In this document: piece by piece, positions 5,473 to 61,124 of the stretch
Layout: the number at the start of each line of letters is the position of its first letter
Position numbering within the stretch: position 1 is the stretch's first letter
NCBI RefSeq assembly: GCF_030464365.1
Contig: NZ_VCYI01000007.1
Coordinates: 1 to 64,000, forward strand
DNA length: 64,000 bases
Source: Methanoculleus methanifontis
Lineage (GTDB): Archaea; Halobacteriota; Methanomicrobia; Methanomicrobiales; Methanoculleaceae
Reading direction: 5' to 3'
Made by a program: the position numbers and the translations under genes
The notes under the pieces: model-generated
What the model was told of the DNA's origin: nothing
The model's input: the letters and a program-made list of their open reading frames with translations, nothing else
The model's database searches: none

Positions 5473-5616
5473 AGGGCCTGAGTTTGAGAATGCCGGAGGT
5501 CTTCGAGCGGGGAGGGGCCGGAGGGCCTGAGTTCGAGAATGCCGGAGGTCTTCGAGCGGGGAGGGGCCGGAGGGCCTGAGTTCGAGAATGCCGGAGGTCT
5601 TCGAGCGGGGAGGGGC
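5473..5616. repeat. 49-bp tandem repeat, about 2.9 copies
   Basis: Three nearly identical copies start at 5473, 5522 and 5571. Each contains GAGTTCGAGAATGCCGGAGG followed by TCTTCGAGCGGGGAGGGG. The first copy has one T in place of C. The layout (GAGTTYGAG, a short palindrome, then a G-rich link) resembles the units of the palindromic mosaic elsewhere in the window. The repeat fills the gap between the unknown gene at 4857-5366 and the 3' end of moaA. No spacers are present, so it is not a CRISPR array. Confidence 0.9.
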
Positions 5617-9478: not shown

Positions 9479-10105
9479 GTGGAAAGGGACGAGGCACTGG
9501 CCCTGCTCCGGCGTTACGTGACGTCCCCGTCCCACATCATTCAAGTCGCACCTGCGGTGCTGCTGCTACGGCCCTTCACACCTAACGGTGCTCACGTTCC
9601 CGCCCTTCGGCCGGTCGCGTTCGGCCCGACGCACAGCCATGCCACGGCCGCCGTCATGAGGAAGGCCGCGGAGCATCTCGGCGAGGATGCCGCGACGTGG
9701 GAGGTGATCGGCCTTCTGCACGACATCGTCGGCGGAGATAAGGAGCGGCACGGTGTCGAGGGTTACCGGATTCTGATCGAGAACGGTGTATCCGAAGAGA
9801 TCGCGGATATCGTCAGGCGCCACAACCACATGCTCTTTGGGGATTACGTCCGGCCGGTCGAGGTTGTGCTCCAGGCGGCGGACAGCGCGTCAGGCCTGAT
9901 CATCGCCTGCGCCCTGGTGAAGGGCGGTGCGATCGACGAGGTCACCCCCCGGACGGTGAAGAAGAAGTTCAAGGAGAAGTCGTTTGCCGCCGGCTGCGAG
10001 CGCGAGAGGATCCGGATGATCGAACCGCTCATGGATCTCGAGACGTTCTACCGCATCGCGATCGAGGGGCTCACGGAAGGCCGCGGCGATCTCGATCTCG
10101 GCTGA
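9479..10105 (+). CDS. HD-domain phosphohydrolase with an in-frame repeat-derived insert
   Basis: 208 residues from a GTG at 9479. HD-superfamily ligands are visible: HSHATA (first His), GLLHDIVGG (His-Asp), RRHNHM, and QAADSAS (last Asp). Family members hydrolyse nucleotides or other phosphoesters with bound metal. Codons 22-51 (9542-9631) do not look like protein; they match the palindromic mosaic found in the intergenic gaps. Removing these 90 bases restores SHII-HSHATAAVMR, a normal-looking HD N terminus. The insert lies immediately before the first metal ligand, at a helix-loop junction, and keeps the frame. A TATA-like CTTATCC about 30 bases upstream suggests a leaderless message. Confidence 0.85.
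   Translation: MERDEALALLRRYVTSPSHIIQVAPAVLLLRPFTPNGAHVPALRPVAFGPTHSHATAAVMRKAAEHLGEDAATWEVIGLLHDIVGGDKERHGVEGYRILIENGVSEEIADIVRRHNHMLFGDYVRPVEVVLQAADSASGLIIACALVKGGAIDEVTPRTVKKKFKEKSFAAGCERERIRMIEPLMDLETFYRIAIEGLTEGRGDLDLG
9542..9631 (+). repeat. Palindromic mosaic repeat inserted inside a coding sequence
   Basis: 90 bases, exactly 30 codons. It contains GTCGCACCTGCGGTGCT, then CACACCTAACGGTGCTCACG, then CGCCCTTCGGCCGGTCGCG and TTCGGCCCGACGCA. These are the same modules as the intergenic array at about 46365-46490 (TTCGCACCTGCGGTGCTCC, GTCGCACCTAATGGTGCTCC). The flanks read ATCATT on the left and CACAGCCATGCC on the right. The precise ends are ambiguous by a base or two because CA occurs at both junctions. 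Confidence 0.8.
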
Positions 10106-10145
10106 GCGCAACCCATATATGGCTCCCTGACCGAGGATAGAAGGC

Positions 10146-10694
10146 ATGATGCAAGAGCGCGGCAAGGTTATCGATCGCGTGGAAGAGGCCGTAGCGCTGC
10201 TCGTCGAGCGGATGGACGCCCGGCTCATCCCGGAGGTCGGGATGAACATCGTCTACGCCCTCCCCGATGCGCGGAGCAAAGAGGACGTGGCGGGAGTCCT
10301 CGGCCGGATCGTCAGGCTCGGCGAGGCGGTGCACCCCGTCGGGGAGATCGCGTTCGGGGCAAGCGACCACGTGGCCCGGATCGTCATCACGGCCATGCGT
10401 TTCGACCCGCGCATCCGGAGCGCCGCAAACATCCGCTTCTCGGAAGCAATCCTCCCTGAGCTCGATAACCTCCTCTTCGAGGTCTGCTCGTTCGACCGGG
10501 AAAACGAACCCGTGGGCGTGCAGACGATGGACTGGGGCGTCGCTTCCTGTTGCAAGGAGGGTGTACCCGACGTCATCTACGACCGTGGGGCCGTGGGGAA
10601 AGAGCCGATGATCCGGGTTCTTGGGGAAGATCCCGTCACGGTCGCACAAAATATTCTTAAACTGTCAAATCGCATAATCTATGCACAATTGTAA
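10146..10694 (+). CDS. Stand-alone ThiN-type thiamine-phosphate synthase domain protein
   Basis: 182 residues. After a short helix, the ThiN fold is recognised from VGMNIVYALPDARSKEDVAGVLGRI, the GASDHVARIVITAMRFDP segment, the DWGVASCCKEGVPDVIYDRG stretch and GEDPVTVAQNI near the end. ThiN domains couple hydroxymethylpyrimidine diphosphate and thiazole phosphate to thiamine phosphate, and others act as ligand sensors in regulators (ThiR). Here there is no kinase (ThiD) or DNA-binding domain, so either a synthase or a sensor role is possible. A TATA-like CCATATATGG at about 10113-10121 precedes it. It starts a tight cluster with rps17e and dapA. Confidence 0.8.
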   Translation: MMQERGKVIDRVEEAVALLVERMDARLIPEVGMNIVYALPDARSKEDVAGVLGRIVRLGEAVHPVGEIAFGASDHVARIVITAMRFDPRIRSAANIRFSEAILPELDNLLFEVCSFDRENEPVGVQTMDWGVASCCKEGVPDVIYDRGAVGKEPMIRVLGEDPVTVAQNILKLSNRIIYAQL

Positions 10695-28020: not shown

Positions 28021-28146
28021 TTTTTCATCAAATCCTGAGGATGCGTTGGCTCCGGTGCGGGAAAAATGTGCGGAACCGGGGAGGCGGGCCGCTGTGGGGC
28101 GGTGCGCGAACGTATGGGAGACGGTTGGTGATTAGCATATCCACAC

Positions 28147-28369
28147 ACGGATTTCCGTTGGCTATCGCCACTGGGGAGGGGCTGACGGGGAGGGGGATGC
28201 CCCCCCCTCCCCTGTCTCAACTCCTAAGCTGATGTCTACAACCCCCACCCCACCCGGCCTTCGGCCTCCTCGAACGCACCTTCGGTGCTCATGCTCCGGC
28301 CCCGTGGCCCGTCGCACCCCTCCCCAGGGGGCGGGGGCAGTGCATGGCGATATCCCCCACGGTCCACTG
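28147..28369 (+). repeat. Inverted-end intergenic element, copy A
   Basis: The left end ACGGATTTCCGTTGGCTATCGCCA (ending 28170) and the right end TGGCGATATCCCCCACGGTCCACTG (28345-28369) flank a G-tract hairpin (GGGGAGGGGCTGACGGGGAG, then CCCCCCCTCCCC) and a palindromic mosaic with CACCTTCGGTGCTC and GGCCCCGTGGCCCGTCGCA. Copies B, C and D share the ends and the hairpin but differ inside. The remaining parts of this 480-base gap (28021-28146 and 28370-28500) show nothing else. Confidence 0.8.
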
Positions 28370-32202: not shown

Positions 32203-32303
32203 GCGGGCATTGATCTTCTCCCGGCGCTGGCGGTCAGGGAGAGCCATCGCTCATTTTGCGTGAGCGGTATCATCATCCATGCTCTGCAAGTTCACGCGAA
32301 GGC

Positions 32304-32491
32304 GCGAAGTGCGACGTTCCGCTAGGACCGGAGTTTGAGCACCGTCAGGTGCGAAGTGCGACGTTCCGCTAGGACCGGAGTTTGAGCACCGTCAGGTGCG
32401 AAGTGCGACGTTCCGCTAGGACCGGAGTTTGAGCACCGTCAGGTGCGAAGTGCGACGTACCGAAGGACCGGAGCGTGGGAACCGTCAGGTT
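32304..32491. repeat. 47-bp tandem repeat, about 3.9 copies
   Basis: Copies start at 32304, 32351, 32398 and 32445. Each is GCGAAGTGCGACGTTCCGCT, AGGACCGGAGTTTGAGCACC, GTCAGGT. The last copy diverges (GTACCGAAGGACCGGAGCGT). It is the palindromic mosaic read on the opposite strand: GCACC-gtca-GGTGC palindromes alternating with a second module and the linkers TGCGACG and CCGGAG. No spacers, so not CRISPR. Confidence 0.92.
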
Positions 32492-32536
32492 TGAGTGCTG
32501 GCAACAACACGACCGAAATAAGGAGAGATCCCCATG

Positions 32537-32733
32537 CAGTGGACCGTGGGACTATCGCCGTGGGGGGTGGGGACAGGGGAGGGGGTTTCCCCCTCCCCAC
32601 CTGACGGTGGTCGAGCTCCGGGCGTTCCGCCCATCGCACTCCCCGTCAGCCCCACCTCGCACCTTCGGTGCTCGAACTCCGCTCCTGCGGAGCGTCGTTC
32701 CTCCAATGGCGATATCCCCTTGAAATCCGTGCC
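32537..32733 (-). repeat. Inverted-end intergenic element, copy B (reverse orientation)
   Basis: Read on the minus strand: left end GGCACGGATTTCAAGGGGATATCGCCA (from 32733) and right end GGCGATAGTCCCACGGTCCACTG (to 32537), matching copy A in both ends. The interior has the CCCCCTCCCCTGTCCCCACCCC arm and mosaic palindromes (GCACC-ttcg-GGTGC, CGCTCC-tgc-GGAGCG). Inverted relative to A, C and D, so copies are not a simple tandem duplication. Confidence 0.8.
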
Positions 32734-45921: not shown

Positions 45922-46646
45922 GTCTCCACCCGGCCGCCGGTAGTTCCACCGTGGGGCGTGAGTATCTGTGCCTCCCGGTCTGTTCCCTGCCGCGTGCCCG
46001 GCCGGAGGCTCTCTCCGGGAGCCGATCCTGCAAAAGCGGGTGCTGCACCATAACAGCCGGCAGGCGCACGGAGGCAGTGCTCCGCTACGCAGCAATACGG
46101 GTATTCTAGGGTGAGAAATGTCGACAAGGCGTCCCCCATCGTGTGATCGCCGGGCTCGTCATCGTCCACGGGAGCGATCCCGGCGACAGTACTATCCACG
46201 AAGAGTCTAATAGCGGCGAACGAGATTAACTTTTCCTGGACGTGCAGTGGAGAAGAGGCGAACCGACACCGGTCGTCCTGATGACATGTTACCCCGGCAG
46301 AACGCGGTGGTGCGTCGCGGAGACCTGCCTCCCGGTGGACGATGATCCCTGAAGAAATGCGGTTTCGCACCTGCGGTGCTCCGGCCCGTCGCACCTAATG
46401 GTGCTCCTGCTCGGTTCCTGCGGAACCTCGCAACTCGAAAACACTTCGTGTTTTCTCGAGCTCCGGCCCTGCGGCCCGTCGCATTTAGAGAGAAGAGGAT
46501 ACACGAAAAGACGACGTCAAGGGGGGAAGTGTCTTGTGTGGATCCAAATCTCTCTAGGTCTATCTAGTGCAGTCTAATATTTAATAATTTCTGTTTGGGA
46601 AATGTAGAAAATAAAGGTTTTGGCCGGTTGCCCGGGCATTTAAGGA
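45922..46646. other. 725-base gap with a palindromic mosaic in its middle
   Basis: The gap separates the DUF389 gene from a rhodanese gene. The first 400 bases hold GC-rich sequence with some inverted repeats (GGAGGCTCTCTCCGGGAGCC at about 46002-46021) and no protein gene that I can support. The part from 46365 to 46490 is a palindromic mosaic. The last 100 bases are AT-rich (CTAGGTCTATCTAGTGCAG) and may be the end of a transcript. No riboswitch is recognised. Confidence 0.45.
46365..46490. repeat. Palindromic mosaic array
   Basis: In order: GCACC-tgc-GGTGC, the link TCCGGCCCGTCGCACC, then TAATGGTGCTCC, CGGTTCC-tgc-GGAACC, GAAAACAC-ttc-GTGTTTTC (46437-46455), and GGCCC-tgc-GGGCC like pairs with TCGAGCTCCGG and CCGTCGCA links. 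The modules at 46370-46400 nearly equal those inserted in the HD gene at 9542-9631, which is the clearest evidence that the coding insert is the same family. Confidence 0.85.
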
Positions 46647-47820: not shown

Positions 47821-48030
47821 ACGAGAAGAACGAAGTTCTTCGAGGGGACGGGGTCTGGTGAGGAGAAGTATTGCGCTCCGGCGAGCACATTTGCTAGAGC
47901 GGTGAGTCCTGGAGGCTGGTGCGCTGGTTCAACAGGCGCCGAAGGGTGGGGGTTTGGGTGTGCGAAGGTTTCCTTTATGGCTGATTCTGTTCCCCTTACG
48001 GCTGATTCTTCCTCACGATGTCGCAAAGCC

Positions 48031-48310
48031 TGTACACGGCTTTCCACTGGATATCGCCATTGGGGGAGGGGCTGACGGGGAGGGGGGCATGCCCCCCTCC
48101 CCTGTATCTGCCCAGTACGCCGACATCTGTAACCCCACTCGAAGACTTTCGGTTTTCTCAAACTCCTAGAGTTGTCCGTCGCCCTTCCTGAGTTATCGAA
48201 CACCTCCCTATATTGGCACTCGCAAACCTCTCCTCAAAAACCCCCACCTCCCGCGCTTCGCGCTCCTCCCGCCCCCAAGGGGGCGGGCAGTGCGTGGCGA
48301 TAGGTGACTG
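48031..48310 (+). repeat. Inverted-end intergenic element, copy C
   Basis: Left end TACACGGCTTTCCACTGGATATCGCCA (to about 48059), G-tract hairpin GGGGAGGGGCTGACGGGGAG with CCCCCCTCCCC, right end TGGCGATAGGTGACTGACC from 48295. The interior of about 180 bases contains a mosaic with CGAAGACTTTCGGTTTTCTC and CGCGCTTCGCGC. The rest of the 844-base gap (47610-48453) has the array at 47700 and no gene. Confidence 0.78.
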
Positions 48311-55424: not shown

Positions 55425-55610
55425 CCCGGTGCGGAGTGCGACGGGTCATGGGGCCGGAGCATGAGCACCGCAGGTGCGGGGAACGACTGCCGGGAGCGTA
55501 GCGGACGGCGGGAGTTTGAGCACCGCAGGTGCGGGGGAGGAGGCCGGAGGCCAGGAGGAGTGCGACGGGCCATGGGGCCGGAGCACGAGAAAAAAGGTCG
55601 TCCCGGGGAC
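55425..55610. repeat. Palindromic mosaic array upstream of yjbQ
   Basis: Two copies of GAGTGCGACGGGYCATGGGG, CCGGAGCAYGAG appear at about 55434 and 55555, with GCACCGCAGGTGCGGGG and GGAGTTTGAGCACCGCAGGTGC between. GCACC-gca-GGTGC and GGCCC-atg-GGGCC arms pair. Outside this array, the 488-base gap from 55322 to 55809 shows AT-rich sequence downstream of gyrA and no gene. Confidence 0.82.
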
Positions 55611-60865: not shown

Positions 60866-60980
60866 GGGGCTGCGCACTTCGCACCTGGCGGTGCTCACGC
60901 TCACTGTGTTCGCGCCTCTAAGCCTCACGGCCTCTCGTGCTCCCGCCCCCGCACCTGACGGTGCTCAAGCTCCTATCCTA
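60866..60980. repeat. Palindromic mosaic array adjoining element D
   Basis: TTCGCACCTGGCGGTGCTCACGCTC, then CCTCTAAGCCTCACGGCC, and CCGCACCTGACGGTGCTCAAGCTCC. The GCACC-GGTGC arms, with loops tggc and tgac, repeat twice. The array ends close to the left end of element D, as the mosaic does in copies A, B and C where it lies inside the element. Confidence 0.75.
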
Positions 60981-60994
60981 CGCGCAGTCTACAT

Positions 60995-61124
60995 CCCGTG
61001 CACGGCTTCCCAGTGACTATCGCCATTTGGGGAGGGGCTGACGGGGAGGGGGGAATATTCCCCCCTCCCCTGTCCCCACCCCCCTGCGTGGCGATAGCCA
61101 CCACGGTCCACTGGATCGGGCTTT
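60995..61124 (+). repeat. Inverted-end intergenic element, copy D (shortest)
   Basis: Left end CCCGTGCACGGCTTCCCAGTGACTATCGCCA (to 61025), right end TGGCGATAGCCACCACGGTCCACTGG (from 61089). The interior is only the G-tract hairpin: GGGGAGGGGCTGACGGGGAG and CCCCCCTCCCCTGTCCCC. With no mosaic inside, this copy defines the minimal element of about 130 bases with 12-bp inverted ends TGGCTATCGCCA. Confidence 0.82.

Follow-up and report, generated by a model that had tools for sequence, protein, structure and literature searches.

A gene for an HD-domain hydrolase in Methanoculleus methanifontis carries a 90-nt in-frame insertion that derives from a hairpin repeat found between genes in the same genome, immediately upstream of the codon for the histidine presumed to be the first metal ligand. 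At the same nucleotide position other members of the genus have no insert, one 45-nt unit or two such units. The insertion is probably a unit tolerated in a dispensable gene, which entered in frame, gained a second unit and was spread between species by recombination. The window analysed here is a 64,000-nt stretch, part of contig C28 of a 2.61-Mb assembly in 30 contigs (G000 below).

The HD gene and its insert

The features of the locus on which the argument depends are the following:

9479 to 10105, + strand: HD-domain hydrolase gene (Pfam HD PF01966, HDIG TIGR00277, orthologs)
9542 to 9631, + strand: 90-nt in-frame insertion of 30 codons that originates from the hairpin repeat found between genes (ortholog alignment, 63 genome matches)
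9542 to 9574, + strand: first part of the ancestral single unit, with hairpin A, linker and left part of hairpin B (45-nt alleles of G031 and G017)
9548 to 9560, + strand: hairpin A, GCACCTGCGGTGC (alleles of G031 and G017)
9575 to 9619, + strand: second 45-nt unit, within hairpin B of the first (alignment of 45-nt with 90-nt alleles)
9620 to 9631, + strand: right end of the single unit, TTCGGCCCGACG (allele alignment)
9632 to 9634, + strand: codon adjoining the right end of the insert, for the presumed first metal-ligand His (H52, aligned with H22 of orthologs that lack the insert)

The gene is flanked by priL, encoding a primase subunit, and a gene for a ThiN-domain protein. Its product matches Pfam HD (E 2.6e-11; 44.3 bits against a cut-off of 22 bits) as well as HDIG TIGR00277, and the residues of the H...HD...D pattern, H52, H81-D82 and D135, are present and conserved in the ortholog comparison; by Pfam and residue pattern it is an HD-domain hydrolase, with an activity that is predicted only. 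A sequence search of solved structures found no close relative, and Foldseek against the PDB returned weak matches only, several of them HD hydrolases. PADLOC gave no match, and no Rfam family matches at the locus. The protein has 208 aa with the insert, compared with 182 aa in most orthologs, and starts with GTG in G000 and with ATG in nearly all others. The first metal ligand, which by analogy with the HD family we take to be H22, is invariant in the insert-free orthologs of the genus and is replaced by Arg (H22R) in G017.

An earlier note on this DNA had described the insert as built of the modules of intergenic arrays, and this is borne out by the 63 matches of 9535-9640 in the genome, a similarity far beyond chance, the best of them other than itself having E values of 6.4e-15 and 4e-11. 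Its coordinates are correct to about 3 nt: the insert comprises codons 22-51, and the next codon is that of the His aligned with H22, directly after the insert, as the note had placed it. The closest copy, by contrast, is not the array at 46365-46490 named there (46365-46406 reaches only E 1.9e-5); the closest are at C27:542-615 and C23:13478-13550. Taking out 9542-9631 restores an ordinary HD protein with the frame kept, and 24 orthologs read straight through the site (ATC-GTG-CAC-AGC and similar). The palindromic character claimed for the repeat is strong in the array at 46365-46490 (DNA fold z -3.8), while in the copy in the gene complementarity is largely eroded (z +0.57). At the borders, no clear target-site duplication is definable and no terminal inverted repeats are seen; a duplication would be of 2-3 nt (GCA) at most, in an apparent short form in which host GTGCACAG becomes GTGCA/AGTCGCACC...CCGAC/GCACAG.

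The intergenic hairpin repeat family

Clustering places the repeat at 95 positions in G000, about 15 kb in total, and two further arrays used as queries recovered 58 and 63 genome places. The unit consists of two alternating hairpins with fixed linkers, TCG-[CACC..GGTG]-CTCNNGCTCC-[stem-loop]-GTCG. Stem sequences are highly variable, yet their complementarity exceeds that of shuffles, with a mean perfect stem of 4.1 versus 2.7 for hairpin A and 3.9 versus 2.4 for hairpin B. Head-to-tail arrays of 45-49-nt units occur at several genomic places, as in a tandem satellite. Outside genes, unit lengths of 45, 46 and 47 nt occur equally often, and there is thus no clear bias toward multiples of three. 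A strict threshold recovers the family from 22 of 35 Methanoculleus genomes and from none of five genomes outside the genus, a distribution by which this hairpin satellite is described, from sequence matches, as Methanoculleus-specific and genus-wide. Within the window, in addition to the HD gene, it is represented by:

32300 to 32702, unstranded: intergenic arrays of hairpin units with a 47-nt period and others
46360 to 46490, unstranded: intergenic array named in the earlier note, with strong hairpins (z -3.8)
55425 to 55593, unstranded: intergenic array of the hairpin family
60873 to 60990, unstranded: intergenic array of the hairpin family

The window also holds, at 5473-5616, a tandem array of 49-nt units, whose orthologous intergenic region differs in content or length in all six relatives examined, from about 100 to 510 bp; such arrays turn over fast between species. 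Empty and filled intergenic sites compared between species were too rearranged for insertion borders to be read, and no shared target site is definable among the arrays elsewhere. Y1_Tnp (PF01797), the IS200/RAYT-type transposase domain, is absent from G000 (5 of 14 control genomes respond), and no transposase partner of the hairpin unit was identified.

The copy in the HD gene is exceptional. By codon-usage scores trained on the window, it is the only one of the 95 repeat places in G000 that lies inside a gene, and the same scores class about 76% of the window as coding; thus, the repeats either avoid genes or are purged from them. The genome search for other coding genes with the same modules, which the earlier note had proposed, accordingly yielded none besides the HD gene, and six relatives, over about 366 kb of homologous sequence with 28 repeat places, again have intragenic copies in the HD gene only. 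Two sets of candidates in the wider material were set aside: open frames with repeat peptides in other genomes (L110-L120) have no coding signal on both sides, and in the one apparent second case (L095), a 641-aa frame that spans a repeat belongs to a radical-SAM-like gene further down, overrun on its upstream side, and is not an insertion.

Alleles and their history

Among 30 Methanoculleus orthologs, six carry the insert at exactly the same nucleotide position and 24 are empty in the alignment. The insertion is therefore clean, as the earlier note had expected, but not confined to this genome. The 90-nt form is found in G000, M. sediminis S3Fa (G011), UBA208 (G014) and G006, the last with 89 nt after a 1-nt deletion, and the 45-nt form with one unit in DJKA123_ANT-F21_bin.24 (G031) and UBA430 (G017); further named relatives are M. 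chikugoensis L21-II-0 (G004) and Methanoculleus sp. MH98A (G012). The form closest to canonical is that of G031, a complete unit that reads GTC-GCACCTGCGGTGC-TCCAGCTCC-GGCCCTTCGGCCC-GAC, and the intact 90-nt allele of M. sediminis encodes the peptide region QVAPAVLLLRPFAPNGAHVPALRPVAFGPT. The second unit is identical in G006, G011 and G014 apart from the deletion in G006, and differs by one base in G000. Since the site is insert-free in other genera of the family, in other Methanomicrobiales and in Archaeoglobi, the empty state is ancestral.

In trees of the flanking genes, the carriers stand on three separated branches (G000/G006/G011, G014/G031 and G017), an arrangement that needs 4-5 changes and was unaffected by adding two more genomes. 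One movement of the allele can be seen directly:

9527 to 10480, unstranded: recombination tract common to G000 and G006 (near-identity block against G006:C13)

This tract of about 950 bp starts at the insert and contains few substitutions and two indels, whereas the two genomes diverge by about 8-9% around it; the allele was thus exchanged recently and spreads by recombination. Between clades, the second-unit region is near-identical while the flanks differ by 12-15%: the insert of G014 matches that of G011 and G006 at 95% identity, compared with 85-88% for the flanks, and at most 3 differences in 90 positions at 13% divergence have P = 0.002. The 45-nt core, in comparison, has diverged among G031, G017 and G000 about as much as the gene itself and its flanks, and G014, G031 and G017 have flanks typical of their own clade all the way to the insert. 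To us, these patterns suggest that a single unit inserted long ago, that the two-unit allele is younger and that recombination has moved the insert; the single origin and the direction from 45 to 90 nt would follow from sequence comparison, and the evidence for a single origin with recombination is direct for the G000-G006 pair only. The earlier note had called the repeat mobile. Polymorphism at one site, the 45-nt and 90-nt states, the turnover of arrays and the recombination of the allele agree with this, but no transposase has been identified and Y1_Tnp is missing.

State of the host gene and predicted structure

The HD gene has been damaged or lost repeatedly in the genus. A second in-frame change, which the earlier note did not have, lies just after the HD motif in G000:

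9725 to 9730, + strand: position at which G000 alone has lost 12 nt in frame (DYDI), between ACATCG direct repeats

The DYDI residues are kept in G006 and other orthologs. In G006 the 1-nt deletion inside the insert causes a frameshift. At the right insert border of this allele (L034), a single base change has produced an ATG in frame, immediately ahead of the ligand His and downstream of the frameshift, a possible restart for a shortened HD protein. G007 and G005 have lost the gene independently and near-completely, leaving relics of about 84 bp (L195) and about 109 bp (L196), respectively, between priL and the ThiN gene. In G029 (L060, about 1907-2338) it is cut near the 3' end by a GC-rich mobile element of about 420 bp, which has GTAGTGC/GCACTAC ends and appears to have duplicated 8 nt of its target, ATGATCGA; intergenic elements of G000 (L072, L024, L091) match it in part. 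Taken together, the relics, the frameshift, the DYDI deletion, the H22R replacement in G017 and the G029 element indicate that the HD gene is dispensable in Methanoculleus.

Lesions are in excess among carriers (3/6 versus 1/24, p = 0.018), an excess that is not significant when the two relics are counted (3/26 instead of 1/24, about 0.06 by hand calculation). The dN/dS of the HD body in carriers, 0.04-0.29, overlaps the insert-free range (median 0.16), with no clear difference that would indicate relaxed selection. G011, G014 and G031 have no change at columns that are invariant in insert-free orthologs, and given this and dN/dS values in the range of non-carriers, their insert-bearing protein may still work.

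In the AlphaFold2 model of an insert-free ortholog (mean pLDDT 89), the site falls near the beginning of helix 2 (residues 17-37), within its first turns and a single residue ahead of H22; the earlier note's suggestion of an extra surface loop does not fit, the site being the start of a helix and not a loop. The insert in effect lengthens the connection between helices 1 and 2. When it is included (mean pLDDT 84), scores drop under 50 for residues 17-47, helix 2 begins again at residue 50 and the core remains mostly above 90. In these models, the HD fold is compatible with the insert, and the insert is predicted to be disordered.

Origin and meaning of the insert

Several explanations have to be weighed. 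That the insert is an assembly artefact has a practically negligible chance of being right: repeats are prone to misassembly, but it is present in independent assemblies and on long contigs, namely M. sediminis S3Fa (L145) and the MAGs UBA208, UBA430 and DJKA123 bin.24. It is improbable that the true start lies inside or after the insert and the repeat is a 5' leader instead of protein. An in-frame GTG occurs within the insert at 9557-9559, G006 has its new ATG directly before the ligand His, and such misannotation is common for N-terminal REPs (PMC3733652), but with or without the insert, the 21 codons that precede the site encode conserved helix 1, and nearly all orthologs share an aligned CTTAT box, about 28 nt ahead of the annotated start. 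The insert is presumably translated. A mobile hairpin unit with no recognised transposase, inserted site-specifically and independently in at least three lineages in 15-codon steps, is a doubtful alternative. It would suit the one nucleotide position on three separated branches, the clade-specific flanks of G014, G031 and G017 and the apparent border duplication around GTGCACAG. The 45-nt core, however, has diverged like its flanks and fits one old insertion, recombination has been demonstrated at this very locus, and neither a shared target site in arrays elsewhere nor a transposase was found.

The earlier note had gone further and held that the repeat can be exapted as protein sequence, in other words that the 15 or 30 residues are a functional, length-variable loop selected in carriers. 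The in-frame state of five of the six carriers, the two different in-frame lengths and an HD body under purifying selection in G014 and G031 are in keeping with this, but the gene is dispensable or decaying in these lineages, with loss or damage in several relatives, the frameshift of G006 lies within the insert itself, residues 17-47 are predicted to be disordered, and this is the only intragenic copy in the genome. Moreover, the encoded residues vary (VLLL/VLQL/VQPL), and changes are mostly non-synonymous, at least as many as synonymous ones in small numbers. Exaptation thus appears very improbable, and the insert itself probably has no function.

The reading that we prefer is that of a tolerated unit in a dispensable gene. 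A single 45-nt unit, composed of hairpin A, linker and hairpin B, would have inserted in frame directly before the first ligand-His codon; a second unit of 45 nt would later have inserted or expanded inside the first, and the allele would have been carried between species by homologous recombination. Survival would have been permitted by a unit length that happens to be a multiple of three and lacks a stop codon, by the disorder of the 30 residues, which extend the link from helix 1 to helix 2 and leave the HD core foldable, and, above all, by the dispensability of the gene.

Empty, one-unit and two-unit alleles all occur within one genus. They provide a natural series of 0, 15 and 30 extra residues beside an active-site His, suited to studying how proteins cope with such inserts. 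They also allow an allele with its repeat to be traced as it moves between species via recombination. Because the host gene has been repeatedly lost or broken in the same clade, the case also cautions against exaptation as the default reading of in-frame repeats.

Comparison with known systems

Literature text searches, with subscription papers mostly outside their reach, returned no report of an archaeal in-frame palindromic repeat; as far as these searches reached, this is the first archaeal intergenic palindromic repeat in frame as protein. Another repeat in the window has a likely counterpart in the literature: the recurring GGGGAGGGGCTGACGGGGAGGGG elements at 28140-28213, 48029-48102 and 60995-61068, flanked by TATCGCCA/TGGCGATA, resemble repeated G-quadruplex sequences of Methanoculleus that are reported to have a CTGAC loop (PMC8044849).

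For the hairpin family, the satellites Fam_48_45_4 (45-nt) and Fam_102_51_3 (51-nt) of M. marisnigri (PMC6749651) are probably in part the same intergenic family, being likened to it by unit length and genus and not by sequence. That survey regarded multiples of three as likely coding, and neither insertion polymorphism nor gene insertion was seen in it for the M. marisnigri family. Archaeal MITEs, such as SMN1 and SM3A of Sulfolobus, are also short non-coding mobile repeats (PMC3718332), but they are marked by terminal inverted repeats, by target duplications and by a transposase partner; for the hairpin unit no such feature is established.

The closest parallels are bacterial. Intragenic GTAG/CGTC REPs are palindromes that are mostly intergenic, with rare copies inside genes, often dimers that encode 20-30 residues, and in recB of two Xanthomonas species REPs are reported at nearly the same place (PMC3733652). 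GTAG REPs, however, come with RAYT transposases, whereas Y1_Tnp is absent from G000, and the units here differ in that two hairpins alternate in tandem arrays of 45-47 nt. CGTC REPs have a stem of 8-9 bp, a loop of 4-5 nt and an unpaired CGTC tag at one end; in Methanoculleus, CGTC often follows hairpin B, but perfect stems are mostly 3-6 bp and a second hairpin alternates with the first. Rickettsia palindromic elements (RPEs), short palindromic repeats found in frame within protein genes (PMC10969869, PMC3733652), share with the HD gene in-frame insertion into a protein gene. They differ in having entered dozens of unrelated genes, compared with one gene and one of 95 places here, and the present repeat, archaeal and built of 45-nt two-hairpin tandem units, is set apart from them by description and not by sequence. 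We file the in-frame insertion of a palindromic repeat as a known kind of event, in a repeat family that is assigned here to neither the RPEs nor the REPs.
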